Assembly (NCBI RefSeq): GCF_040515995.1
Contig: NZ_CP159485.1
Location: 310,001 to 374,000, forward strand
Length of the DNA stretch: 64,000 nt
Origin: Proteinivorax hydrogeniformans
GTDB lineage: Bacteria > Bacillota > Proteinivoracia > Proteinivoracales > Proteinivoracaceae
Direction: 5' to 3'
Below the pieces are notes generated by a model that was not told where the DNA came from, made no database searches, and was given only the letters and a program-made list of their open reading frames with translations. Both the position numbers and the translations under genes were made by a program. Shown here piece after piece: positions 4,684-28,789 of this stretch. How positions within the stretch are numbered: position 1 is the first letter of the stretch; every line of letters starts with the position of its first letter.

Positions 4684-5262
4684 ATGGATTTAAAGGTAAG
4701 AAAATATTATACACTCGTAGAGGAAATAAATAAAGACGGAGTTAAAGAAGTGTCAAAAGTTCAAAAAAGAGCTGTAGCTGCAGCAGTGATAGAAAATCCT
4801 TTTATAGATAAATTTCAAGAAGACCTTTCGTTGTTGTATGATTGGAGCGAAAAGTTAGCCCCCATATTAACCAAAAAAGCTAAAGATGCAGCAGGATTAA
4901 CTCATGTCGAAAGTTATGGTAAAGCGGCCATTGTTGGTGGTCGTGGAGAACTAGAACATGCAGCGGCATGCTTACATCCTAAGCTAGGCAAACCTTTTAG
5001 AAAGGCTATTGGAGGAGGTAAATCAATAATACCTTCAGCTAAAAAGATGGGGTTCCCTGGAACAGCAATTGATGTACCTATTCACTATAAGGATGCTGCT
5101 TATGTGAGAACTCATTTTGATGCCATTGAATTTAGAGTTCCGGATGCTCCCAGAGATAGCGAAATCGTATTGATACTTGCGATTACAGATTGCGGCAGAC
5201 CTCATCCTAGAATTGGTGGGTTAACAATAGAAGAAGCAAAAGGTGAGGATGGCTTACGATAA
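4684..5262 (+). CDS. AA_synth (amino acid synthesis) family protein, first copy
   Basis: 192 residues throughout one domain of the AA_synth/DUF1185 family, which is named for structure and not for a proven reaction. Seen: the opening VRKYYTLVEE, the conserved GKAAIVGGRGELEHAAACLH block, the KPFRKAIGGGKSIIPSAKKMG block, the HYKDAAYVRTHFDA block and a C-terminal ITDCGRPHPRIGGLT. A paralogue at 18965-19546 also shares an operon with an enamidase. It is the last gene of the operon and is followed by a terminator. The paired duplication suggests a job next to enamidase, for example on the ring-opened or enamine product; this is inference. Confidence 0.75.
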   Translation: MDLKVRKYYTLVEEINKDGVKEVSKVQKRAVAAAVIENPFIDKFQEDLSLLYDWSEKLAPILTKKAKDAAGLTHVESYGKAAIVGGRGELEHAAACLHPKLGKPFRKAIGGGKSIIPSAKKMGFPGTAIDVPIHYKDAAYVRTHFDAIEFRVPDAPRDSEIVLILAITDCGRPHPRIGGLTIEEAKGEDGLR

Positions 5263-5727: not shown

Positions 5728-6627
5728 ATGAGATTAGGATTTATAGGACTTGGAGTAATGGGAAAAGGAATGGCTGCGAATCTTATGAAAAATGATTACA
5801 AACTGACGGTTTTTGATATAAACCAAACCGTTTTGGAAGAATTTAAAGGCTTAGGAGCTGAAATAGCCGAGTCTCCTAAACAGTTGGCTGAAAAAGCGGA
5901 TGTTATTATGACATCTCTTCCAAACTCGAAAATTGTACAAATGACGTTGTTAGGGGAAAATGGTGTTTTAGCAGGTGCAAAACCTAATAGTATAATAGTT
6001 GATTTTAGTAGTATAACCCCTAAAACAATAAAAGATATAGCAAAGCAAGCAGCGAAAAAGCAAGTAGAAGTGATGGATGCTCCGGTTAGTGGTGGGCAAG
6101 CAGGAGCTTTAAAAGGTGCTCTTACTATTATGGTTGGAGGAAAAGAGGAAGCCTTAGAGAAGGTTATGCCTCTTTTACAATGTATGGGTAAATCCATAAA
6201 ACATGTAGGAGATGTGGGAGCTGGCGACACTGTTAAATTAGTTAATAATTTGTTGTTAGGTGTCAACATGGTGGCTGCATCAGAAGCATTGGCTTTAGGT
6301 GTAAAAGCTGGTTTAGATGCAGATGTATTGTATGATGTAATATCTCAAAGCTCTGGAAACTCATATGCTCTTGAGGCAAAATATAAAAAGTTTATCGCTA
6401 AGGGTAATTTTGAGCCAGGATTTATGATTGATTTACAGCATAAAGATTTACAGCTGGCAATTGATACTGCTAAGGATTTAGAGTTGCCGCTACTTGTAGG
6501 AAACCTAACACAGCAATTATATGAAGTTGCTAAAGCTGAGGGTAACGGTCAAAAAGATATTTCAGCAATAGTAAAAACCTATGAAAAATGGGCGGAAGTG
6601 CAAGTTAGGGAAGGTGAGAATAAATAA
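5728..6627 (+). CDS. hgd: 2-(hydroxymethyl)glutarate dehydrogenase
   Basis: 299 residues, the usual length for beta-hydroxyacid dehydrogenases. The N-terminal Rossmann motif GFIGLGVMGKGMAANL (4-19) is present. The substrate-binding signature is DAPVSGGQAGALKGAL near 122, and the catalytic lysine region is VKLVNN near 170. In nicotinate fermentation this NAD-dependent enzyme reduces 2-formylglutarate to 2-(hydroxymethyl)glutarate. The context (next gene an Fe-S dehydratase, then the rest of the pathway) points to Hgd and not to 3-hydroxyisobutyrate or tartronate-semialdehyde dehydrogenase. It overlaps the next gene by one base (TAATG), so the two are translationally coupled. Confidence 0.88.
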   Translation: MRLGFIGLGVMGKGMAANLMKNDYKLTVFDINQTVLEEFKGLGAEIAESPKQLAEKADVIMTSLPNSKIVQMTLLGENGVLAGAKPNSIIVDFSSITPKTIKDIAKQAAKKQVEVMDAPVSGGQAGALKGALTIMVGGKEEALEKVMPLLQCMGKSIKHVGDVGAGDTVKLVNNLLLGVNMVAASEALALGVKAGLDADVLYDVISQSSGNSYALEAKYKKFIAKGNFEPGFMIDLQHKDLQLAIDTAKDLELPLLVGNLTQQLYEVAKAEGNGQKDISAIVKTYEKWAEVQVREGENK

Positions 6628-8030
6628 TGGACCTTAAAAAAAGCATAGCTTCAAAAACACCTTTGACACTTGGAGAGACATTAGAAATAGCGGAAAAAGA
6701 TAAGGTGAAAGTAGTAGATGTGATTTTAGCAGAAGCTCAAAATGAAACAAATAAAACGAAGGAAGAAGTTTTAACTGAATCATATAATCAGTTTGCTCAC
6801 AATTTAAAGGCAATTGACATTGGTTTAGATACAGGACAGAGTTTGCTTTTAGGCAGCACAGGAGCTCAACTAAACAATGAAGAAAACACATTATTTGAAG
6901 ATGAATTCGTCAATAAGATTTTAAAATATACACTGGCTGCTCAAGTGGGAAATCATGAAATAGGTTTAAACCCTTGTGCTGGTACAGGCGACTCTTGTCC
7001 TTATACTGGTTTCATCAAAGCTATGCAGGATACTGGATATAGTAAAAATGAAGTGAGAGAAACAACAGCCTTGATTCTAAAGATAGGTTCAATGTTTAGA
7101 GTTGGCAAAATAACTACAGGATGTAACATGGAAGGTTTTGGAGCTGGAGCTGCAGCTATAGCAGCTGCAGCAGTACACATAAATGGTGGAAGTCCAAAAG
7201 ATATGGAAAGAGCCATGGTACTATCCATATCTCCAACCATTGCAGTTCCTTGTACTCCAAGAGTAATGGTTCCTGGCCTTTGTGCTACCCATATAGGTGG
7301 AGCAATTTTGATTGGAGTACTATCGGCACAGTTAGCTATCAAAACAGATATTGAAGTAAATGTGCCAATAGATGTTATGTTAGCAATGGCGACAGAAGCG
7401 CATCCTATTTCAGCTAAACATATTGTGCCGACGGTAAATGATTTTATGAGACCATTTTTCAAAACAAAGCAAGAAGTAGAAAAACTTATAGACCAGCCCA
7501 TTAAAGAGCAAGAAAAACTAGATATCCAGGAAACATTGGAAACGTCTAAGCAAGTGGCCAAAAAACTTGCTAAAGGAGCAAAGCCAATCTATGAAACGTT
7601 AGGAGAAGCGGTAGTAGGAGGTAGTTCTCAAGCGGTTGGCTCACCTACAAATACTGGTAGAATCGCCCATCATTTATCTAAAGGGCAAATAAAGAAAGTC
7701 AAAATAGAGTTATACGGGGAGTTATTTGACCGTAGGGGGATTAACATTCCCGGAACCTTAATGGGAGCTGTTTTTGGTGCCTCAACAAATGATTATAAAA
7801 TGTATAGGCAAGTAATGGAGTCAATTGAGCGTACAGGAATTGAAGTAGATATAGTTAAAGCTAAAGAACATCAGGTACAAAAAGTAACTATTGAAACAAG
7901 CGAAGGGACTTATGCTGTTGATGCGTTAAATAGAGGTGGAGGTCGTCTAGTTTTAAGAGATGCAACGCCTTCTATAGAACAGGCGAGAAAGGTAGCTCAA
8001 GAACTTTCAATAGTAGTAGTGGAGGAGTAG
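6627..8030 (+). CDS. hmd: 2-(Hydroxymethyl)glutarate dehydratase, [4Fe-4S] serine-dehydratase-like
   Basis: 467 residues. The N-terminal ~290 residues match the alpha domain of anaerobic L-serine dehydratases, with cysteines in NPCAGTGDSCPYTG, TTGCNMEG and VPCTPRVMVPGLC available for an Fe-S cluster. The C-terminal ~150 residues (AVGSPTNTGRIAHHL, then a YGELFDRRG stretch) resemble the beta domain, so the order is alpha then beta, opposite to single-chain serine dehydratases. Predicted reaction: dehydration of 2-(hydroxymethyl)glutarate to 2-methyleneglutarate in the cytoplasm. The operon order, between Hgd and the later steps, supports this. A plain L-serine dehydratase is the alternative but less likely. 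Confidence 0.8.
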   Translation: MDLKKSIASKTPLTLGETLEIAEKDKVKVVDVILAEAQNETNKTKEEVLTESYNQFAHNLKAIDIGLDTGQSLLLGSTGAQLNNEENTLFEDEFVNKILKYTLAAQVGNHEIGLNPCAGTGDSCPYTGFIKAMQDTGYSKNEVRETTALILKIGSMFRVGKITTGCNMEGFGAGAAAIAAAAVHINGGSPKDMERAMVLSISPTIAVPCTPRVMVPGLCATHIGGAILIGVLSAQLAIKTDIEVNVPIDVMLAMATEAHPISAKHIVPTVNDFMRPFFKTKQEVEKLIDQPIKEQEKLDIQETLETSKQVAKKLAKGAKPIYETLGEAVVGGSSQAVGSPTNTGRIAHHLSKGQIKKVKIELYGELFDRRGINIPGTLMGAVFGASTNDYKMYRQVMESIERTGIEVDIVKAKEHQVQKVTIETSEGTYAVDALNRGGGRLVLRDATPSIEQARKVAQELSIVVVEE

Positions 8031-8041
8031 GGGGTGCAACC

Positions 8042-9259
8042 ATGAATATAATTGAGAAAATAATAGCACAAAAAGCAAATAAGGATTTTGTTAAAGTGGG
8101 CGATGAAGTAACGATCAGTGTGGATTTAGCTATAGCACATGATGTGACAGCCCCTATGGCGATAAAGCAGTTTAAGTCCATAAACATTGATAGAGTGTTT
8201 AATAAGGACAAAGTAGCTTTTGTGATGGACCATTGTATCCCCTGCTCTACTGTGGAGTCAAGAGAACAGCATAACTATATCAAGGAATTTTCTAATCAAT
8301 TTGGTGTAAAGCTATTTGATAAATCAGAAGGAGTTATCCATCAGGTTCTAAGAGAAGAAAAGCTTTGTGATACAGGAGATGTGGTTGTTGGTGCAGACTC
8401 TCATACGTGTACTGCTGGAGCTTATGGTGCATTAGCATTACCAGTGGGGTCAACAGAATTAGCCGCTGTTATGGCACTGGGAACAATAGACATTGAAGTT
8501 CCTCAAACCCATTTGATAAAAATAGAGGGACAGCTTAAAAAAGGTGTTTATGCCAAGGACATAATTCTTCATGTTATCGGTAAATTTGGCACTAATGGAT
8601 TTACTGATAAAGGAGTAATTTTTACTGGAGAGACCATACTAAATTTAACTGTAGAAGAAAAAATGACCATAGCAAATATGATGATTGAAAAGGGAGCTAT
8701 GATTGGCTATATAGATCAAGAAAAAGAAATGGATACCGAAAAAATTGGTGAAGTATCTGATATCACCTGTATTTCTGCGGAAGATATAAAGCCGGTAGCT
8801 GCCTGTCCATCCTCTCCAGCTAATATAAAACCTGTTGAGGAAATAGAAGGTACAAAAATAAATCAAGTGGTTGTAGGCAGTTGTACTAATGGTAGATATT
8901 CAGACATGGAAATAATAGCAAATGTTTTAAAGGACAGGAAGGCTAGTGATGATGTTACATTAATAGTAGTACCGGCTTCAAAAAAAGTATTGGACAAAAT
9001 GGAAGAAAACGGTCTATGCAAAATAATCAGAGATGCAGGAGCGATTATTATCAATCCTGGTTGTGGTCCTTGTTTTGGTGCCCATCAAGGATTACTAAAT
9101 AAAGGTGATGTTGCAATAACTACAACAAACAGAAACTTTCCAGGAAGAATGGGCCACAAAGACGCGAAAATTTATTTGGCATCACCGAGGGTTGTAGCAG
9201 AAAGTGCTGTCAAAGGTTATATAGTGAGACCTGGAACGGTAATTCCTTTGGAGGTATAG
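8042..9259 (+). CDS. dmdA: (R)-2,3-dimethylmalate dehydratase / dimethylmaleate hydratase large subunit
   Basis: 405 residues of the aconitase/LeuC family. It has the cluster cysteines in [12 protein letters not shown] and in [13 protein letters not shown], the [17 protein letters not shown] block near 120-136, and a C-terminal [13 protein letters not shown]. It forms the Fe-S large subunit with DmdB and hydrates dimethylmaleate to (2R,3S)-2,3-dimethylmalate. On sequence alone it could be 3-isopropylmalate dehydratase LeuC, but the neighbours are all nicotinate-pathway genes and no leucine genes are near. The small subunit follows 2 bp later. Confidence 0.87.
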
Positions 9260-9261
9260 AT

Positions 9262-9786
9262 ATGGAGAAAATTAAAGGAAATGTTTTTTGCTTCAAAGAT
9301 GATGTAGATACCGATCAGATTTTGCCTGGATATGCTATGTCTAGCCCAGAAGAAGAACTTAAAAACTTTGCATTAAAAGGTAGTTGTATTCCTAAATTTG
9401 CTGAATTAGTAAACAAAGGAGATATTATTTTGGCTGGTGAAAATTTTGGCTGTGGCTCTAGTAGAGAACAGGCTCCGGTTGCTATTAGACAATCCGGTGT
9501 AGGCGTTATAATAGCTAAGTCGTTTGCAAGGATATTTAGGAGAAATGCCATAAATATTGGGTTGCCAGTTTTGACCAGTGATTATGTAGATGAAATAAAA
9601 GAAGATTTGAGTGATGGTGATGTACTAGAAGTTGATATTGATAAATTAAAAGTTACAAATATAAACAAAAACAAATCATATCAACTTAATGAGCTTACTG
9701 ACGTAACTTTGGAGACTTTACAAGCTGGAGGGCTCATCAACAAAGTAATCAATAAGTTAAATGAGAAGGGGTGTAAAAATGGCTAG
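9262..9786 (+). CDS. dmdB: Dimethylmaleate hydratase small subunit
   Basis: 174 residues, LeuD/aconitase swivel-domain family. Seen: [18 protein letters not shown] at the start and the signature [16 protein letters not shown] near 53-68, followed by [18 protein letters not shown]. It completes the substrate pocket of DmdA. It starts 2 bp after dmdA, and its last 8 bp overlap the start of the mutase gene, so the three are likely translated together. The length is normal for the family. Confidence 0.87.
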
Positions 9787-11626
9787 CTCAAGACCAAAAA
9801 CTGAAAAAATAATAAAAGAGGAAATTGAGCGTATAAAAGCTTATGAAAAGGCTTTTGATGTAAAAATGCCTTATATTGATGAAAATGGAGACGTTCAAGG
9901 ATTGCCAGAGGCTTATCCCAGAGAAATAAATGGAGTAAAGCGTAGTGGATATCGCTTAACTGAGCTAGGAAGACAAGCCATTGAAACTGGCAAACCAGTA
10001 CAAAATCCTATTTTGGGAAGAAATAGTGCACAGGAAACATTTGAAGAATCACAACACATGTATGATATAGCAGAAAAACTTGGAATTAGTTTGTTTCAAT
10101 TTGTTCACTCAGAAGCTACAAGGCATATTGACCCTTTAGATGGCTTAGAACTAATAGAGCAGTCAAGGGGCAAAGGTGGAATAACTCCAAAAGGTGAGCG
10201 GGAATTCGTTAAAATGGGTGGAGGTGCTAAGCATCCACTGAGAATAAACGCTACTGGAGACACTACTCATTTAAATGTGATTAATGCATTAATTGCAGGA
10301 TTTGATGGAACAGATTTAGGACCTGTAATACACGTTCACTTTGGCGGTCGAGGTATCCATGATTTTAGAACAAAGGTGGCAAATGGATATAAAGCTTTGC
10401 AGATTTGTGCTGAAAATAATATGTTTGTTCAGTTAGATACTCATAAACATATAAATAACATTATGGGTACAGATGGTATGGCTTTAGCAATGTGCTTATT
10501 GTCTGAAGGTTTAGCAATCAAAGCAGGATTGGATAGAGCTTTGAGCGCCATACAAATGAATGTAGGCGGAATAAACGTACTGGCAGACTTAGCCTTGATT
10601 AAAGCATATCGTGAGATAATTTGGAGTGAATTTATTGTAGCAGTGCCAGAGACTTTTCAGAACCCACCGGCTGACTTAATAGCAGAACAAGCACACTTTG
10701 CCAGAATGGCAATGACCGCTAAATTAGCTGGAGCTAATTTTTACCGACCAAAAGCTGCTGAAAATGTGGGCATTCCTACTGGCAATTCTATGGCAAAAGC
10801 TATTTGGGCAACTCAAGATGTGTTTAATAACACCTATAGAATGGAAATTAATGATCCTTTTATAAACGCTAGAAAGGAAGAAATAAAAACAGAAGCATTG
10901 GCTATACTTACAGCTGCTTTGGAGAGAGATACTTTACTTCAACCAGAAGAAATAACAGAAGAATTCTGGAAATCATTTGACGACAAAGAGTTAATTGACT
11001 TGATAGTAGAAGCCGGGCGAAAGGGAATTTTAGATGCACCTAGAGCTGGTGGTTGGGATTTAAAAAGATTTGTAAAAACAAATAGAGATAGTGATGGTAT
11101 TAGGCGCTACCTTGAAGGATACACTCCATGCGATGTACCTCAAAAACATATGCCTATTACAAAGGATAATGTAAAAGCGGAAAAAGAGTATGTTGTTACC
11201 AAAAAAGAAAAAGTGCTTTTAGCTACAGTTGGGGCGGATGCCCATGTTGTTGGAATAAATATGGTAAAAGAAGCAATTCAAAAAGCAGGTTATGAAGTTA
11301 TCTTTTTAAGAGGAATGAACTTGCCGGAAACGGTAGCAGAAGTTGCAGCGGAGACAAAAGCTAGCGTAGTTGGTGTGAGCAACTTACTAGGAATGGGTTC
11401 AACGCTGTTTCCTAGGGTAGACAAACGTTTAAGAGAGTTAAAGTTAAGAGATGATGTAGTTTTATTAGCTGGCGGAAGGCTAGCAGAAAAAGAAGAAGAG
11501 CATGCATCTTATGAAGAGAAAATAGCTAATGAGGGAACAAATTTCTTAGGCGTTGATGCCTTTTTTGGTCCAGGTAGCGATGTCACAAAATGCGCAGAAT
11601 GGATTGAAGAACAATTAAAAAAATAA
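9779..11626 (+). CDS. mgm: 2-Methyleneglutarate mutase, adenosylcobalamin-dependent
   Basis: 615 residues. The N-terminal two thirds match the methylmalonyl-CoA-mutase-like barrel of this enzyme. The C-terminal ~130 residues are a B12-binding Rossmann domain with D487-A-H489-V-V-G492 as the cobalt-ligating motif and a later LLAGGRLAE. It converts 2-methyleneglutarate to 3-methylitaconate by a radical mechanism. ATG 9779 is chosen because GAGAAGGGG lies just upstream and the protein then has the length expected for the family; an in-frame ATG at 9761 lies inside dmdB without a site. A MutL-like gene two places downstream may reactivate it. Confidence 0.92.
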
Positions 11627-11643
11627 GTTTGAGGTGATAAGTA

Positions 11644-12798
11644 GTGGAACAACATAACACTAAAGTCGTGATAATGAGGGCAGGTACAAGTAAGGGAATA
11701 TTCATCAAAGATTCGGATTTGCCTACTGACAAGAAACAACGGGACAAGCTTATATTAAAAATATTTGGCAGTCCAGATGTAAGACAAATAGATGGTTTAG
11801 GGGGGGCAGACCCATTGACAAGCAAGCTTGCTATAATAGGCCCCTCGTCTAGAGAAGATGCAGATGTGGACTATACGTTTGGACAAGTTTCGTATACAGC
11901 TCCTAAAATAGATTATTCTGGCAACTGTGGCAATATCTCTGCTGGAGTTGCGCCTTTCGCAGTTGACGAAGGTTATGTTAATGCGGTTAAACCTGTTACA
12001 ACGGTGAGAGTGCATAATACAAATACAGGAAAAATTTTAGTTGAAAAAGTGGAAGTGGATCATGGCAAAGCAAAAGTGATAGGTGACTTCAGTATTGCTG
12101 GAGTTCCGGGAACAGGTGCACCTATTGCTATAGATTTTTCCGACACTCAAGGTTCAAAAACTGGCAAGTTACTACCAACAGACAACGTAGTTGATAAAAT
12201 TTCGGTACAAAATTATGGACAAGTCACTGCGTCGTTAGTGGATGCAGCAAATCCAATGGTTTTTGTAAAAGCTGAAGACTTAAATCTGAAAGGTACAGAA
12301 ACACCAGCTGAAATTGATGAAAACAAAAGCCTGTTGAAAACATTAGAGGAAATCAGGGGTAAAGCTGCAACAATGATGGGACTTGTTGACAGTTGGGAGA
12401 AAGCAGTGGATGAAGTTCCAGCCTTTCCAATGTTAGCTTTAGTATCTGAGGCACAAAATTATAAAGATTTTACAAAAGGAACGCCTATTGACCAATCAGA
12501 GGTGGACTTTGTATCTAGACTTATGTTTATGCAGGTGGTACACAAAACATATGCTGGAACTGCAACAATTTGTACAGGAGCAGCGGCTAGAGTTGAAGGA
12601 ACAGTTGTTAATGAAGTTATGAAAGACAAAAACAGAGGCCGGCAAGACGTTTTAAGGATAGGTCATCCTGCTGGTGTAATTACAATTGATGTAACAGCTA
12701 GCAAAGCAAAAGAAGGATGGGAGTTAAACAAAGCGGTAATTAACAGGACGGCAAGAAGAATAATGGAAGGGGACTGTTATACAACGAAAAGAGGGTAA
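11644..12798 (+). CDS. mii: 3-Methylitaconate delta-isomerase (PrpF family)
   Basis: 384 residues, PrpF-type fold (diaminopimelate-epimerase-like). Recognisable blocks are VVIMRAGTSKGIFI at the N-terminus, GLGGADPLTSKLAI near 55-68, YSGNCGNISAGVAPFA near 98-113 and TICTGAAARVEGT near 303. It moves the double bond of methylitaconate to give dimethylmaleate, the substrate of DmdAB. It starts with GTG after GAGGTGAT at a good distance. Related PrpF proteins isomerise aconitate in the 2-methylcitrate pathway; the mutase just upstream makes Mii the better call. Confidence 0.88.
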   Translation: MEQHNTKVVIMRAGTSKGIFIKDSDLPTDKKQRDKLILKIFGSPDVRQIDGLGGADPLTSKLAIIGPSSREDADVDYTFGQVSYTAPKIDYSGNCGNISAGVAPFAVDEGYVNAVKPVTTVRVHNTNTGKILVEKVEVDHGKAKVIGDFSIAGVPGTGAPIAIDFSDTQGSKTGKLLPTDNVVDKISVQNYGQVTASLVDAANPMVFVKAEDLNLKGTETPAEIDENKSLLKTLEEIRGKAATMMGLVDSWEKAVDEVPAFPMLALVSEAQNYKDFTKGTPIDQSEVDFVSRLMFMQVVHKTYAGTATICTGAAARVEGTVVNEVMKDKNRGRQDVLRIGHPAGVITIDVTASKAKEGWELNKAVINRTARRIMEGDCYTTKRG

Positions 12799-12802
12799 TA
12801 AA

Positions 12803-14233
12803 ATGTCTAAATTTGATTACTTGGTAATTGACATAGGTAGTACTTACACAAAACAGAGACTATTTAGCAAAAAAAAGCTTGTTTGCAGTGTGCAAAGTCC
12901 AACAACAATTAAAAACGTTCAACAAGGAATAGCAAAGGGTCAAAATTTTATCAAACAAAAAATCACAGAAAGTGAAATAGATGTCGATAATATTTTAGCA
13001 TCTAGCAGTGCAGCAGGTGGTCTAAAAATGGTTGCCATGGGATATATGTCAAGGGTAACAGCAAAAGCTGCTAAAGAGGTGGCAATGAACTCAGGAGCTA
13101 AAATATTAGAAATAGTTTCTAATGAAGACCCCCCATCTTACAGAATACAAATATTAAAAGAGACAGCCCCTGATATAATTTTGCTGGCAGGGGGAACAGA
13201 TTTTGGAGATGAAACTTCGTTGCTGGAGAATGCCCAGCTTCTAGCTGATTGTAAAATAGACGGAATAGTTGTGTTAGCAGGCAATATTGCGGCTCAAAAG
13301 AAGGCGGAACAAATATTAATAAAAGCGAACATATCTTGTGTGAGAGTAGCCAATATAATGCCGACCATCCATCAATTAAAAGCCAAGGAAGCCAGGGAAG
13401 TAATACACAAGGAGTTTATAAAGCAAATAACACAAGCACAAGGAGTAAATTTGCTACAAAATCAACTAACGAACGATAAAATAATGCCTACTCCTGGAGC
13501 GGTTTTAATGGCAGCAGAGCTGCTTTCTAAAGGAACATATTCACAAAAAGGTTTAGGAGAAATTATTGTGGTTGACTTAGGCGGAGCAACCACCGATGTA
13601 CATTCAGTAGTTCCAAGATTGGCAGATTTAAAAACAGAAGAAATAGGTTTAATAGTTAGCAACGAAAAACAAGTGTCTTATCGTACAGTTGAAGGCAATT
13701 TAGGTATGCGAATTAGCGCTATGAGTATTTTGGATACAGTTAATCCCAAAGGTATATTGCAAAAAAGGCAAATAACAGATGAACAAACATTAAAGTCATT
13801 CATTGACTATTGTAAGGAAGTGGAAGAAAACCCCGAGCATATACCTAAAGACAAACAACAATATCAGTTTGATACTTTTCTAGCTGAGACAGCAGTAGAA
13901 ATAGCACTGAAAAGGCATGCCGGTTATATATCAACCTATCATGACCCAGTGACAGGTGTAGTACCGGGAATGCCCGTAGGTAGAGATTTGCGAAACGTAG
14001 ATACCATAGTTGCTGTTGGAGGAATTTTTGCTAATAGAACACAACAAGATTGTAAAAATATAGTAAAAAATGCACTAAAAGATAAAGGAACTTCCCTTTT
14101 GCCAAAGGAGCCTGAAGTATTAATTGATTCAAACTACTTGCTTTTTACAGGGGGAATAATTTCACAAGTGGATGAAGAATACGCTTTTGATATTCTTATA
14201 AATCAATTTAATAAAAAAATAGGTAATTGCTAA
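12803..14233 (+). CDS. MutL/GlmL-family protein, putative mutase reactivation or assembly factor
   Basis: 476 residues of the actin-like ATPase-fold family found beside B12-dependent glutamate mutase (MutL/GlmL), unrelated to the mismatch-repair MutL. Seen: the phosphate-1 motif VIDIGSTYTKQRLF at 8-21, ILLAGGTDFGDE near 129, and a second nucleotide motif VVDLGGATTDVHSV near 255. In carbon-skeleton mutases such proteins are thought to protect or reactivate the B12 enzyme, so the likely client is 2-methyleneglutarate mutase. It starts 4 bp after mii. The family is clear; the client protein is inferred from position. Confidence 0.75.
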   Translation: MSKFDYLVIDIGSTYTKQRLFSKKKLVCSVQSPTTIKNVQQGIAKGQNFIKQKITESEIDVDNILASSSAAGGLKMVAMGYMSRVTAKAAKEVAMNSGAKILEIVSNEDPPSYRIQILKETAPDIILLAGGTDFGDETSLLENAQLLADCKIDGIVVLAGNIAAQKKAEQILIKANISCVRVANIMPTIHQLKAKEAREVIHKEFIKQITQAQGVNLLQNQLTNDKIMPTPGAVLMAAELLSKGTYSQKGLGEIIVVDLGGATTDVHSVVPRLADLKTEEIGLIVSNEKQVSYRTVEGNLGMRISAMSILDTVNPKGILQKRQITDEQTLKSFIDYCKEVEENPEHIPKDKQQYQFDTFLAETAVEIALKRHAGYISTYHDPVTGVVPGMPVGRDLRNVDTIVAVGGIFANRTQQDCKNIVKNALKDKGTSLLPKEPEVLIDSNYLLFTGGIISQVDEEYAFDILINQFNKKIGNC

Positions 14234-14522
14234 AGTGACTCAACGAAATAGCATGTCAATCTAACTATTGTTAAGAAAAGAATCAGCTAATCCAACTCCA
14301 CTTTAGCAGAAGAGGTCGGTCTATGTGCCGACCGACCCATTTGGACACCACAGCACTAAAATAAACTGCATGTCATTTTAAATGGTAGTAAGGCCGTGCA
14401 TTTAACAGTAGAAACCCAATTTTTTTTGAAATTATAAATGTAAAAGTCTTTTATCAAGCGTTGTGAAATAAGCAATCGCGAATCGCCTATAACCAAAAAT
14501 AAATTAGGAGGAATTAAACAGA
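14234..14522 (+). other. Intergenic region between the mutL-like and dml genes
   Basis: The 289 bp hold no gene. GGTCGGT (14314-14320) and ACCGACC (14331-14337) form a 7-bp hairpin without a T-run, so it is not a clear terminator. No sigma-54 or convincing sigma-A promoter was found. It has no similarity to the repeated element at 257 and 5532. It may be a leader or a processing site within one long operon. Confidence 0.4.
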
Positions 14523-15389
14523 ATGAAAAAGACGACCCAACTGAGAAAACTATTGAATTCAGAAGAAATCTTGGTAGCTCCAGGAGCTCACGACGCTTTA
14601 ACAGCTAGAGTGATTGAAAAAACAGGCTTTGAGGCAGTTTATATGACTGGATATGGACAAGCGGCAAGTGCGTTGGGGAAACCAGACATTGGACTATTAA
14701 GTATGACTGAAATGCTAGATAGAGCTAGGAAGATGGTGTCTGCTGTTGAAGTGCCAGTTATAGCAGATGCTGACACAGGTTTTGGCAATGCTATAACAGT
14801 AATGAGAACTGTTGAGGAGTATGAAGCAGCAGGGGTAGCAGGAGTTCAGCTAGAGGATCAAGTGGCGCCCAAAAGATGTGGGCATATGTTAGGCAGAAAA
14901 GTAATTTCTATGGATGAGATGGTAGGAAAAATAAAAGCGGCAAAAGCTGCTAGGAAAGATGAAGAATTGGTTATTGTAGCTAGGACTGATGCAAGAACAG
15001 TACATGGTATAGATGAAGCGATTAAAAGAGCTAAAGCATATGAAAGTGCAGGAGCGGATGTTATTTTCGTAGAGTCATTAGAAACAAAGGAGGAAATGGA
15101 AAGAATCCACAAAGAGCTTAGCGTCCCAACCTTGGCTAACATGGTTGAAGGAGGTAGAACCCCTCTTTTGACTAATGATCAGCTTCAAGACTTAGGTTAC
15201 GGGTTGGTTATTTACCCAACAGCTTCAACTTATGTTTACGCAAAGGCAATGTTCGGATTGATGAGCAAGCTTAAATCAGATAAAACAACTGAAAATTATA
15301 CCGATGAAATGATAACATTTTCTGAGTTTAATGAGTTGGTAGGTTTAGGAGATTTTGCGGATTTAGAGGATAAGTTTGTGAAGGAATAA
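14523..15389 (+). CDS. dml: 2,3-Dimethylmalate lyase (isocitrate lyase/PEP mutase family)
   Basis: 288 residues. It has the family motif in QLEDQVAPKRCGHMLG near 113-128 (the K-R-C-G-H catalytic loop), VIADADTGFGNA near 80-91 binding the metal, and ARTDARTVHGIDEA near 156. It splits 2,3-dimethylmalate to propionate and pyruvate, the last specific step of nicotinate fermentation. Methylisocitrate lyase (PrpB) and oxaloacetate decarboxylase are close relatives; the operon context decides. It starts after AGGAGGAATT and is followed 25 bp later by the second enamidase. Confidence 0.88.
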   Translation: MKKTTQLRKLLNSEEILVAPGAHDALTARVIEKTGFEAVYMTGYGQAASALGKPDIGLLSMTEMLDRARKMVSAVEVPVIADADTGFGNAITVMRTVEEYEAAGVAGVQLEDQVAPKRCGHMLGRKVISMDEMVGKIKAAKAARKDEELVIVARTDARTVHGIDEAIKRAKAYESAGADVIFVESLETKEEMERIHKELSVPTLANMVEGGRTPLLTNDQLQDLGYGLVIYPTASTYVYAKAMFGLMSKLKSDKTTENYTDEMITFSEFNELVGLGDFADLEDKFVKE

Positions 15390-15414
15390 ACTAAATGCAA
15401 GGGGAGATGAAGAG

Positions 15415-16581
15415 ATGGTAACTACGTTGGCAATTAAAAATATTGGTGTTTTAGTTACAGGAGATATAAATAACCCCATATTAAAAGCAAGTACCATTAT
15501 AGTTCAAAATGGTAAAATTAAAAAAATCGGTAACGAAGAGTTGTTAGACCAATTTAACTGCCAAAAAATTATAGATGCAAAAGACACAACGGTAGCCCCA
15601 GGATTTATTGATTCACATGCCCACCCTGTTTTGGGAGATTATACCCCAAGACAAAACACAATGGGCTTTATTAACAGCTCTCTTCATGGCGGTGTCACCA
15701 CTATGATTTCTGCTGGAGAGCCACACACACCTGGTCGTCCTAAGAATCCATCAGGAGCGAAAGCACTAGCTATACTGGCAAATAAATCTTCAAAAGCAAG
15801 GCCAGGAGGTGTAAAGCTTCATGGAGGTGCAGTGATTTTAGAAAAAGGACTTACAGAAAAAGACTTTATTGAAATGGCTAATGAAGGAGTATGGCTAGTT
15901 GGTGAGGTTGGTCTCGGCTCGGTAAAGGACCCCGAGGAAGCAGCGCCACTGGTAGCATGTGCAAAAAAGCATGGGTTTAAAGTAATGATGCATACTGGTG
16001 GAACATCCATTCCTGGCAGCAGTACCATAACTTCAGATGATGTTATAAAAACCGACCCTGATGTTGTGTCCCATATAAATGGTGGGCCTACAGCTGTGTC
16101 ATTAGAAGAAGTTGAAAAAATTATCGATAATACCAACATGGCATTAGAAATAGTTCAATGTGGTAATTATAAAATCTTGAGGCAAACTGTTAATAAAGCA
16201 ATAGATAAAGGGCAAACAGAAAGAATTATTGTGGGCAACGACTCTCCATCTGGTTCGGGAGTTATACCTTTAGGTATTTTGAGAACACTTGCTTATGTAG
16301 CAGCGGAAACCGAAGCAACTGCTGAAGAAGCGATTTGCTTTGCTACTGGAAACACAGCAAAAGTATATGGACTAGATGTAGGGGTCATAGAAGAAGGAAA
16401 AGAGGCAGACATTGTTATTATGGATACACCGCTAGGGTCAATGGGTAAAAATGCATTAGGTGCTTTAGAGCAAGGGGACTTACCAGGAATATCAATGGCT
16501 TTAGTTGATGGAGAAGTGTTATTTGCCAAGAGCAGAAATACTCCGCCTGCTTCTACTCCAGCGGAACTAATTCAAAAATAG
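15415..16581 (+). CDS. ena: Enamidase (amidohydrolase family), second copy
   Basis: 388 residues, alignable end to end with the protein at 554-1717 and sharing all key blocks: DSHAHPVLGDYTPRQNT (metal-binding histidines), SSLHGGVTTMISAGEPHTPG, MMHTGGTSIPGSSTI and NDSPSGSGVIPLGIL. One motif residue differs (HAH here, HTH in the first copy). It sits directly before the 6-hydroxynicotinate reductase gene, so this copy is the more likely dedicated enamidase of the main pathway. Its stop codon runs into the GGGGGG ribosome site of the next gene. Confidence 0.9.
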   Translation: MVTTLAIKNIGVLVTGDINNPILKASTIIVQNGKIKKIGNEELLDQFNCQKIIDAKDTTVAPGFIDSHAHPVLGDYTPRQNTMGFINSSLHGGVTTMISAGEPHTPGRPKNPSGAKALAILANKSSKARPGGVKLHGGAVILEKGLTEKDFIEMANEGVWLVGEVGLGSVKDPEEAAPLVACAKKHGFKVMMHTGGTSIPGSSTITSDDVIKTDPDVVSHINGGPTAVSLEEVEKIIDNTNMALEIVQCGNYKILRQTVNKAIDKGQTERIIVGNDSPSGSGVIPLGILRTLAYVAAETEATAEEAICFATGNTAKVYGLDVGVIEEGKEADIVIMDTPLGSMGKNALGALEQGDLPGISMALVDGEVLFAKSRNTPPASTPAELIQK

Positions 16582-16592
16582 GGGGGATAACA

Positions 16593-18107
16593 ATTATTAC
16601 AATTATTTTAGATAAATGTAAAGGTTGTAATATATGTGTTAAAAACTGTCCACTAGAGGCAATTGAGGTTGTTGACAAAAAAGCATATACAAATGAAAAT
16701 TGTGTAGCTTGTGGAATATGTGTAAGAGTTTGCCCGTTTGATGCAATAGAGAAAGATTCAAAACAGTCTTCAGACGCATTATCTTGTACAAATTGTCCGG
16801 TTAGTTGTGCCATTGCCCCAGGGAAGACGGGTGCGTGCGCCAGATATGTAAATGATCGTAATGAAATCATTAGAAATAGAAAGTTAGTTGTGGATAGTTT
16901 AACAAAGAAATCGAATGAGAAGTTACCTTATAAGCCTATAATTACAGCAGTTGGTAGCGGAAGTACCTATCCTTGTTGCCGTCCTGCCCCTGCAATAGTT
17001 CAAGAAAAAGTAGATGACGTGGATGTCGTGACTGTAGTTACAGAAGCTCCCCTTAGCTACAGCGGAGTAAAAGTAAAAATTGATACTAATATGCATATAG
17101 GAGAAGAGGGCGCAAAAGTAAAAAGAGATGGTAAAGTGGTGGGAATGGTTACCACTGAAGAATATGGTTCTAAGATGCTGACGGTGGGTGGCGCAAATTT
17201 ATTAAGTAATGGAAATGATGGATTTATAGTAGCAAAGACAATTGTAGATTTGGCTAACTCCAGAAAAGTCACTTTAAAGGTTGAAGATGGAAGTACCCTA
17301 GAATTACAACAAGGTCAGCTTCCAGTTATCGATGGAAAAACAGATACGCTTATGAGAGTTGGATGTGGAAGTGCGGCAATTGGTTTGTTTGCAACTCATA
17401 TGTCAAAAGTAGCACAAGAAGCAATTATATTAGATTATCATGTTATAGGTTTACTGTCAGAGCATTTTGCTGGAGGAGAAGTGGGAATGCAATACAGCGG
17501 CGTAACTCCCAATGGTGTTAAAAGTACCAGAGGAAGGTATTTTGGTAAACAGGGACATGGTTGGGGTGGAACTGATATAACAGATCCTGTAGATGCTGTG
17601 GCTGATGTAGATATGAATATAGCCAAACCAGGTTATAAAATCTTAGTTACTGAAACCACCGGTCAAAAAGCAGCGGTTTTAGAAGTTCAATCCGATGGTA
17701 GCGTAAAAGAAATCCTTATGCCTGAAGATGTAAAAGAAGTTACTAATATAATGGCTCAAACCTGTGAACAATCTTCAGTTTCAGTTATATATACAGGAGG
17801 AACCGGTGGAAGCGCTAGAGCAGGAGTATCAAGCATGCCTCGGAAATTAACCGAAGCTATTCACAATGATGAAGTTTTAATGACATTGGGAGGAGCACCA
17901 GCATTTGTCCTTCCAGGCGGTGGTATAAACTTCATGGTTGATGTTGGCAAAATGGTTCCTGATGCTACAACATGGGTTCCCACACCAGCAACGGTGGCAC
18001 CAGTGGAGTACACTATGACCCGTAAAAAGTATGATGAGATTGGTGGACACAAAGGCCACATAATGACAAGAGAGGAACTTAATAAAAAATTCAACCTAGG
18101 TGAATAA
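16593..18107 (+). CDS. hnr: 6-Hydroxynicotinate reductase, with a non-canonical start codon
   Basis: Reduces 6-hydroxynicotinate to 1,4,5,6-tetrahydro-6-oxonicotinate, probably with ferredoxin as donor. The frame encodes two [4Fe-4S] motifs right at the start (CKGCNICVKNC, then CVACGICVRVC), two more cysteine groups (CTNCPVSC, ACA), then a large domain with GSGSTYPCCRP, VGCGSAAIGLF and YTGGTGGSARAG. The frame is open back to a stop at 16506, but no ATG, GTG or TTG occurs before GTG 16890, which would remove the ferredoxin domain. ATT at 16593 (or 16596) lies 6-9 nt after GGGGGG and is taken as the start. About 504 residues result. A sequencing error is the alternative. Confidence 0.82.
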   Translation: MITIILDKCKGCNICVKNCPLEAIEVVDKKAYTNENCVACGICVRVCPFDAIEKDSKQSSDALSCTNCPVSCAIAPGKTGACARYVNDRNEIIRNRKLVVDSLTKKSNEKLPYKPIITAVGSGSTYPCCRPAPAIVQEKVDDVDVVTVVTEAPLSYSGVKVKIDTNMHIGEEGAKVKRDGKVVGMVTTEEYGSKMLTVGGANLLSNGNDGFIVAKTIVDLANSRKVTLKVEDGSTLELQQGQLPVIDGKTDTLMRVGCGSAAIGLFATHMSKVAQEAIILDYHVIGLLSEHFAGGEVGMQYSGVTPNGVKSTRGRYFGKQGHGWGGTDITDPVDAVADVDMNIAKPGYKILVTETTGQKAAVLEVQSDGSVKEILMPEDVKEVTNIMAQTCEQSSVSVIYTGGTGGSARAGVSSMPRKLTEAIHNDEVLMTLGGAPAFVLPGGGINFMVDVGKMVPDATTWVPTPATVAPVEYTMTRKKYDEIGGHKGHIMTREELNKKFNLGE

Positions 18108-18108
18108 T

Positions 18109-18942
18109 ATGATTGAAAAACTCAAGGATGATAGAGTTTATGTTGAACAAGGTCCTATTCGTATGGTGTTAGATTTATCTATAGATAATAAAAAAAAGCC
18201 AAACTTGGCCTTAGAAGTTGCAGAGCATGTATTAGGGCAGTTTCATAAAACCCTTAATTATATACCATATGTTAAAGGGCAAAAAAAACTTGAAGCACCC
18301 ATAGAAGAAGCCCCTATAGCACTACAGAAGATGTTAAAGGCTGTAGAAAAATGTAGCGATAGCTTCATGACTCCTCTTTCAGCTGTTGCAGGCTCCTTTT
18401 CAGATATCGCTTTAGAAAAAGCTTTAGAGCTTGGTTGTCAAAGGATAATAGTAAACAATGGTGGCGATATTGCTTTGACAGATGTGGACAACCCTATTAA
18501 TGTAGGTATACCGCTTAAAGGGAATAACGAGCCTAGCTATATTGTCACCATAGCTCCTAAAGCTAACATAAGAGGGGTTTGCACCAGTGGGTTAGGTGGA
18601 AGAAGTTTTTCCAAGGGGATAGCAGATTTAGCAGTTACTTTAGCTAGTGATGCGGCTACTGCTGATGTTAGTGCTACACTTGTAGCTAATAGTACTGATG
18701 TAAATTCGCCTAATATTGTGAGATGTTACGCTGATGAAATTGATAGTGAAACAGATATAGCAGGGCAATTAGTTACCTTAAAAGCTAATAACCTACAGGA
18801 AGATGAGAAGCTTAAAGCTTTGATGAATGGTTGTGACGTCGCAGAAAAGCTTTTAAATAAGCAGGTAATTCAAGGGGTATTCATAGCTGTTGGAAAACAT
18901 ATGGTTAAGATTCCTAATGAAATAGATATCAAGGCTATTTAA
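18109..18942 (+). CDS. UPF0280 (ApbE-like) family protein
   Basis: 277 residues of the UPF0280 family, distantly related to the ApbE flavin transferases. Seen: VNNGGDIALTDVDNPINVG near 115-133 and RGVCTSGLGGRSFSKGIADL near 160-179, comparable to the ApbE-type GGD and SG.-rich segments. ATG 18109 follows AGGTGA and lies just past the reductase stop; an upstream GTG (18100) overlapping the reductase is less likely. Its place immediately after hnr suggests it helps mature or supply a flavin for the reductase; this is inference, and no classical flavinylation motif was found in the reductase. Confidence 0.7.
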   Translation: MIEKLKDDRVYVEQGPIRMVLDLSIDNKKKPNLALEVAEHVLGQFHKTLNYIPYVKGQKKLEAPIEEAPIALQKMLKAVEKCSDSFMTPLSAVAGSFSDIALEKALELGCQRIIVNNGGDIALTDVDNPINVGIPLKGNNEPSYIVTIAPKANIRGVCTSGLGGRSFSKGIADLAVTLASDAATADVSATLVANSTDVNSPNIVRCYADEIDSETDIAGQLVTLKANNLQEDEKLKALMNGCDVAEKLLNKQVIQGVFIAVGKHMVKIPNEIDIKAI

Positions 18943-18964
18943 CTTTAAAAAGTAGGAAACGATA

Positions 18965-19546
18965 ATGAAAATTAGAAAGTTTTATACTTGGGTGGAAGAG
19001 CCTAAAATTGATGGAGAAAAACCCATTGAAGGAAACCCACAAAAAAAAGTATCGGTGGCAGTTGTAATTGAAAATCCATTTGCAGGAAAATATCAAGAGG
19101 ATCTGTCAGAATTAGCAGATTGGAGTGAAAAAATTGCTCCTTTAATGGTAGAAAAAGCTTTAACTGCTGCAAACATAGATGAATCAGAGGCTCAAAATTA
19201 TGGTAAGGCGGCAATTGTAGGAGGAAATGGCGAGTTAGAGCACGCTGCAGCAGTGTTGCATCCAAAGTTAGGGAAACCTTTCAGAGCTGGTTTAGCTGGA
19301 GGAAAGTCAATTATTCCATCGGCTAAAAAAATGGGATACCCAGGTGCAGCTATAGATGTACCTTTACATTATAAAGACGCTGCATATGTAAGGACTCATT
19401 TTGATGCTATGGAAGTGAGCATACCAGATGCTCCTAGAGATAATGAGTTAGTGCTAATACTATCTGTCACCAATTGTGGAAGACCCCATCCAAGAGTAGG
19501 TGGATTAACCATAGAAGAAGCAGAGGGCAAAGATGGACTAAGATAG
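18965..19546 (+). CDS. AA_synth (amino acid synthesis) family protein, second copy
   Basis: 193 residues, close paralogue of 4684-5262. Shared blocks are GKAAIVGGNGELEHAAAVLH, KSIIPSAKKMGYPGAAID, HYKDAAYVRTHFDAME and TNCGRPHPRVGGLTIEEAEG. It closes the main operon as the first copy closes the first one, and a terminator hairpin follows within 100 bp. No reaction is proven for the family as far as I know. The repeated association with enamidase suggests a role in handling the ring-opened product. Confidence 0.75.
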   Translation: MKIRKFYTWVEEPKIDGEKPIEGNPQKKVSVAVVIENPFAGKYQEDLSELADWSEKIAPLMVEKALTAANIDESEAQNYGKAAIVGGNGELEHAAAVLHPKLGKPFRAGLAGGKSIIPSAKKMGYPGAAIDVPLHYKDAAYVRTHFDAMEVSIPDAPRDNELVLILSVTNCGRPHPRVGGLTIEEAEGKDGLR

Positions 19547-28521: not shown

Positions 28522-28610
28522 AGCTTATCAAGAATAGGGGAGAGAGTTAGCTCGTTGAACCTATGCCAACCTATTTTATAATAAGGTGGTTCTGCTAACA
28601 TCGATAAGAA
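28522..28610 (+). ncRNA. SAM riboswitch, variant of the SAM-I/SAM-IV clan
   Basis: P1 is formed by CTTATC (28524-28529) and GATAAG (28603-28608). Inside are GGGAGAGA, GCTC, TTGAACC, GCCAACC, then GGTTCTGCTAACA, which follow the SAM-I order (GAGGGA, GCCC, TGAAACCC, GGCAACC, GGTGCTAA) but depart from it in length and bases. A terminator of its own follows at 28625. I read it as a SAM-clan aptamer of a variant class; a decayed SAM-I copy is the alternative. Confidence 0.7.
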
Positions 28611-28683: not shown

Positions 28684-28789
28684 TTCTTATCAAGAGAGGT
28701 GGAGGGACTGGCCCTATGAAACCCGGCAACAGCCAGTTAAAACTGGAAATGTGCTAAATCCTACAGCTTTAAAGCTGAAAGATAAGAAG
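28684..28789 (+). ncRNA. SAM-I riboswitch (S-box)
   Basis: Canonical S-box order: TTCTTATCAAGAGAGGTGGA, GGGACTGGCCC, TGAAACCCGGCAAC, then GTGCTAAATCCTACAG and a closing GAAAGATAAGAA. It binds S-adenosylmethionine and normally stops transcription when SAM is plentiful. It is followed by its own terminator and then a methionine-type transporter gene, the expected regulon. Confidence 0.97.

Follow-up and report, generated by a model that had tools for sequence, protein, structure and literature searches.

In Escherichia coli, infC (encoding IF3) and pcnB start at AUU (excerpts of PMC1780047 and PMC13009471). In Staphylococcus aureus, cvfC1 starts at AUU, and ccpN and infC start at AUA (excerpt of PMC13009471), while translation can begin at AUU in Clostridium butyricum and C. 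sporogenes (excerpt of PMC11040787). The replacement of an ancestral AUG by AUU was counted once among 61,358 starts in 36 genome groups (excerpt of PMC5622118); annotation bias probably hides further switches of this kind. Here we analyze a 64-kb stretch of the Proteinivorax hydrogeniformans genome (hereafter, the window), in which translation of a 6-hydroxynicotinate reductase-like gene, hnr, most likely starts at AUU, with position 16593 as the favored codon. Searches of the openly licensed literature turned up no description of hnr starting at AUU.

The hnr locus resembles E. coli infC and pcnB in that AUU replaces AUG, a Shine-Dalgarno (SD) sequence is in place and the gene is otherwise ordinary, but it differs from them in that hnr encodes a catabolic enzyme, for which no autoregulation by the product is expected, and in that AUU is not conserved in its homologues. 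Similarly, it shares with the S. aureus cases an AUU or AUA codon lying beside an SD motif in a low-GC Gram-positive bacterium; however, the staphylococcal starts are, according to the same excerpt of PMC13009471, conserved across staphylococci and shown by ribosome profiling, whereas neither holds for the hnr start, which has an average SD. Conservation of AUU in orthologues is not required for membership of this class because most known cases were judged by experiment, and in another known case (a different gene in a different lineage), the start was likewise deduced solely from a missing N-terminus and an alignment. The features of the hnr region, in window coordinates, are as follows.

15415..16581, plus strand: ena2, enamidase-like amidohydrolase gene, upstream neighbor of hnr (Amidohydro_1)
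16506..16508, plus strand: TGA, stop codon closing the hnr frame upstream (sequence)
16579..16581, plus strand: TAG, stop codon of ena2, overlapping the G-run (sequence)
16580..16586, plus strand: SD-like AGGGGGG, 6 nt 5' of ATT 16593 (sequence)
16593..16595, plus strand: ATT, proposed start codon of hnr (a canonical start is aligned there in 50/85 loci, including the 11 best-scoring)
16596..16598, plus strand: ATT, alternative start codon of hnr (a canonical start is aligned there in 27/85 loci, all of them more distant)
16593..18107, plus strand: hnr, 6-hydroxynicotinate reductase-like coding sequence read from ATT 16593, 504 aa (open frame, homologues, ferredoxin domains)
16617..16652, plus strand: first [4Fe-4S] motif of hnr, CKGCNICVKNCP (translation; Fer4 families)
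16701..16736, plus strand: second [4Fe-4S] motif of hnr, CVACGICVRVCP (translation; Fer4 families)
16890..16892, plus strand: GTG, first canonical start codon in the hnr frame, rejected as the start (ORF list, alignment)
5728..19546, plus strand: nicotinate-fermentation-like cluster (gene families; presumed pathway roles, see below)

The hnr frame is open from 16509 to the TAA stop at 18105–18107. Direct reading bears out what the first-pass annotation had reported about its 5' end: no ATG, GTG or TTG occurs in frame between the stop at 16506 and GTG 16890, a stretch of 127 codons, 99 of which lie past ATT 16593; a run of six G (16581–16586) ends 6 nt before ATT 16593 and 9 nt before ATT 16596; and the ena2 stop codon overlaps this run, the last G of the TAG being its first G (16581). 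The same annotation had placed two [4Fe-4S] motifs in the first 45 codons. Both motifs (CxxCxxCxxxCP) are indeed present, but the count fell slightly short, as the cysteine codons run from codon 9 to codon 47 when numbered from 16593. The coding signal of hnr begins near 16593. The 6-nt spacing between the SD and this codon is inside the 5–10 nt expected of an AUU-initiated gene, and the predicted SD/anti-SD duplex (−11.8 kcal/mol) is of ordinary strength, exceeding that of 54% of the chosen canonical starts in the genome sample. The RNA fold at the start region is not unusual (z of about −1.5, with 13/200 shuffles equally stable), and the exact start region had no match in a scan of the viral_contigs collection.

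By itself, an ATT close to a G-run is not beyond chance; it is the alignment with the starts of relatives that lifts the observation above chance. The homologue set comprised 85 loci, of which 80 are the best of the 99 loci confirmed in a collection of named genomes and five come from further relatives, and the N-termini were anchored on the first CxxCxxC. The alignment of related start codons, a check already proposed in the first-pass annotation, favors 16593 over 16596: in this set of the best 80 of 99 plus five, the codon aligned to ATT 16593 is canonical in 50/85 loci (43 ATG, 5 GTG and 2 TTG), 27/85 loci have their canonical start one codon later, opposite 16596, and 5/85 start one codon upstream of 16593. 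Thus, a canonical start lies at most one codon from 16593 in 82 of these 85 loci, the remaining three being archaeal loci with longer N-termini. All 11 top-scoring loci (63–79% identity) start at the 16593 position, ten with ATG and one, that of Clostridium magnum, with TTG. ATT itself occupies this position in none of the 85 other loci (again the best 80 of 99 plus five), so that the AUU of hnr is particular to the window's genome among the loci examined and is not conserved.

The hnr gene is intact and is the sole full-length copy in the genome. Compared with its counterpart in the related genome G002, it shows pN = 0.13 and pS = 0.66, a ratio of about 0.09 that is rough because synonymous sites are near saturation. 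Its product is probably 6-hydroxynicotinate reductase-like, given its full-length homology to Eubacterium barkeri Hnr, the two N-terminal [4Fe-4S] motifs and the cluster context. The E. barkeri locus (L085) is similar in the encoded protein (55% identity, N-terminal ferredoxin motifs) and in the presence of an adjoining UPF0280-like gene and hydroxyacid dehydrogenase gene, but it starts with ATG and has a different gene order. The cluster (5728..19546) encodes a hydroxyacid dehydrogenase, a serine-dehydratase-like protein, a LeuC/LeuD-type dehydratase, a B12 mutase, a PrpF isomerase, MutL, a PEP-mutase-family lyase, Ena2, Hnr, and UPF0280-like and AA_synth proteins, whose roles we take to be those of the E. 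barkeri nicotinate fermentation pathway. No nicotinate dehydrogenase gene was seen among the genes annotated at 1–20 kb of the window. Two enamidase-like genes (554–1717 and 15415–16581) occur in one cluster and match the same single G002 gene, as do two AA_synth-family genes (4684–5262 and 18965–19546) with respect to another single G002 gene. Elsewhere in the window, two tandem SAM riboswitch aptamers lie on the plus strand at 28522–28610 and 28684–28788.

An ena-like gene is found in 55/85 hnr loci of the set (best 80 of 99 plus five), often ending 0–60 nt ahead of hnr. The distance from the ena2 stop to the hnr start is 11 nt in the window and 0 nt in G002. We infer that AUU is used in the cell, with a lower output than AUG, sensitivity to IF3 and some help from coupling to ena2. 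More specifically, ribosomes would bind the AGGGGGG SD, which overlaps the 3' end of ena2, and hnr would be started on AUU by the usual initiator tRNA (anticodon CAU) via an imperfect third-base pair, the N-terminus being formyl-Met although the codon reads Ile. The ancestral start was probably AUG, and its change to AUU should lower initiation and make hnr output IF3-sensitive. IF3 disfavors start codons with a third base other than G (excerpt of the review PMC4611024), the AUU/CAU pair is weak in a reconstituted system (excerpt of PMC10158994), and in S. aureus reporters non-canonical starts reach about 10% of the AUG level (excerpt of PMC13009471). Since the SD of hnr is average, no compensation by SD strength is expected, and a low, IF3-sensitive output is likely; it is plausible that this output is tuned by the IF3 level. 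Translational coupling between ena2 and hnr is likewise plausible and would fit the 11-nt geometry; it would help a weak start. In E. coli, re-initiation is helped by an SD and lowered by excess IF3 (excerpt of PMC2268962).

We surveyed 844 kb of the window's genome (G000; the window and 39 other stretches), scoring ORFs for Markov coding signal and for SD. The joint run gave 669 coding-like ORFs, short or atypical genes being missed by the Markov score, and the two samples run separately gave 357 and 301. Slots were defined as codons 5–9 nt from a strong SD without a canonical start up to five codons further, and AUH as ATA, ATT or ATC. A strong SD without a canonical start was found for 23/669 ORFs, corresponding to 43 slots, 12 of which hold AUH codons versus 3.6 expected (p = 1.5e-4). 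All of these 12 come from the first sample (12/33 slots, 357 genes; 0/10 in the second sample, 301 genes), so that the true rate of AUH starts is uncertain. This slot count replaced a less strict expectation-maximization (EM) estimate of start codons in the 357 genes, which had given 11.2 for ATT and 3.3 for ATA, along with 2–3 each for AAA, GTA and CGA. Nine genes have AUH slots, and seven were kept by eye: hnr and the six genes below. The other two candidates (window 12779 and L156:6086) were dropped because a better ATG lies downstream in both, and weaker ones, e.g. L158:10164, L157:5605 and L313, were set aside.

L168:6204-6716, minus strand: infC (IF3), read from ATT L168:6716 (alignment)
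L162:16513-17493: LCP-family gene, ATA start candidate (survey)
L162:12685-14505: amidase gene, apparent ATA/ATT start (survey)
L159:262-1137: LiaG-like lipoprotein gene, apparent ATA/ATT start (survey); ATG in G001
L166:18558-19658, minus strand: DUF3810 protein gene, apparent ATA/ATT start (survey); ATG in G002
L166:4560-5234, minus strand: sortase gene, apparent ATA/ATT start (survey)

The infC start aligns to an ATT behind AGGAGGTGG, as does that of infC in G001 (L318), a genome of the same genus, and by eye the aligned codon is ATT or ATC in 18/18 relatives shown. The LCP gene of G001 (L277) likewise lacks a canonical start, over 35 codons, and carries ATC at the codon aligned to the G000 ATA. 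The SDs of the LCP, lipoprotein and DUF3810 candidates are stronger than average. Separately, the survey showed an ORF without an early start at L155:11413-13167 that corresponds to the C-terminal portion of a ProA-like anti-phage protein and has the look of a split or broken gene.

The first-pass proposal of an AUU start for hnr is well supported by orthologue alignment, SD placement and the occurrence of other non-canonical starts in the genome (infC and others). The survey also bears on the idea that the assembly is wrong by one base, the genuine codon at 16593 (or 16596) being ATG. For hnr taken alone, such an error is possible: a single T-to-G change restores ATG, the codon seen here in 43/85 relatives (best 80 of 99 plus five). 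However, six AUH-start candidates besides infC would have to be accommodated in the survey of 669 genes. In addition, 144 orthologue alignments (147,780 bases) contain no internal nonsense change, the flagged in-frame stops all being either no more than about 15 codons from the end of an alignment or part of one of three frame-shift candidates. Taking 4–5% of substitutions to make stops, an estimate on which the bound rests, substitution error is bounded near 4.5e-4 per base, which would yield about 0.3 spurious AUH starts among the 669 genes, with a probability of about 8e-7 for six or more. An indel in the G-run could not create a start either, as all three frames lack ATG, GTG and TTG from the run to codon 6. 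Altogether, infC, the other AUU/AUA candidates and selO of G001 (see below) make a base-call error less likely, and we consider it an improbable explanation of the hnr ATT.

Alternatively, the start may truly have been lost through a recent ATG-to-ATT mutation, leaving hnr barely translated; the gene would then be an incipient pseudogene or carry a mutation acquired in the laboratory. This would agree with the uniqueness of AUU at hnr to this genome among the loci examined and with the weakness of AUU as a start in the S. aureus reporters cited above (PMC13009471). Yet the entire hnr frame and the cluster are intact: 14/16 ORFs of the first 20 kb of the window are matched in a 20-kb stretch of G002, each by one unbroken alignment (two pairs share one target each, and one alignment is cut by the stretch end), and the other AUH starts suggest that the genome tolerates such codons. 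We therefore view start loss as very unlikely. A −1 frameshift at the A-run ahead of the ena2 TAG, producing an Ena2–Hnr fusion, could draw on the five A before the stop and on a hnr frame that is open across the last 24 ena2 codons; it was rejected as highly improbable, since hnr of relatives has its own SD and start codon, adjacent ena and hnr genes are separated by anything from −4 to >100 nt, counted from stop to start, and no fusion partner was seen. Finally, a start at GTG 16890, the first canonical codon and the one that a mechanical ORF list yields, is scarcely credible, as the resulting 405-aa protein would, as the first-pass annotation had anticipated, lack the cofactor domain; the 99 N-terminal residues that it would lose have codons that match homologues, show coding signal and hold both [4Fe-4S] motifs.

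Start choice might also be relaxed more widely in the genus. G001 provides two further candidates that are listed here.

L190:7154-8620 (G001), minus strand: selO, ATT start preceded by AAAGGAG, no canonical start for 38 codons
L185:11698-12780 (G001), minus strand: GNAT-domain protein gene, CTG as the likely start behind a very strong SD, 55 codons lacking any canonical start

The selO start is ATG in G000, G002, G004 and G008, and a search of 12 other genomes gave no match to the GNAT-domain protein. A MATE transporter of G001 is a further candidate, with an ATC start. Among G000/G001 orthologue pairs, 90/99 share a canonical start; infC alone among the other nine has AUH in both genomes, and the remaining non-shared starts look, by eye, like alignment or frame artefacts. 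With an identical pipeline, AUH codons fill 0/9 slots in G002, 1/33 in G024, 4/19 in G063 and 4/18 in G001; note that G063, which likewise has ATT candidates, belongs to another family. The AUH excess of the genus is not significant, whether 8/963 (G000 and G001, without infC) is compared with 0/310 in G002 (p = 0.21) or with 1/685 in G002 and G024 together (p = 0.09).

IF3 of G000 and G001 departs from 30/30 other IF3s at several sites, among them three otherwise conserved ones where L/M/I is replaced by R, E/N/K/T by A, and Y/F by V (R36, A48 and V63 in G000). These residues map to positions of about 43, 55 and 70 in E. coli IF3, in the N-domain and linker (aligned range to an E. coli-length chain, with an assumed offset of 7). 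The Tyr at E. coli position 75, mutation of which lowers fidelity (excerpt of PMC5037330), is retained in both genomes. Nothing odd was found in the initiator tRNA, two copies of which are present, both with the GGG/CCC anticodon stem and CAU; 16S rRNA was absent from the single stretch scanned for it. A genus-wide relaxation of start selection, in which AUG would drift to AUU, AUA, AUC or CUG, enabled by the IF3 substitutions and exemplified by hnr and G001 selO, strikes us as rather doubtful, and a tie between the unusual IF3 residues and relaxed start choice is speculative.

If the AUU start of hnr is real, a catabolic reductase starts at a codon ignored by the usual gene finders and would consequently be annotated without its iron-sulfur domain. 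A metabolic gene, involved in the breakdown of nicotinate (vitamin B3), would then join the short list of AUU starts, and orthologue alignment combined with SD placement would stand as a route to such starts. Should the genus-wide reading also be true, these bacteria would serve as a natural test case for the control of start-codon stringency by IF3.
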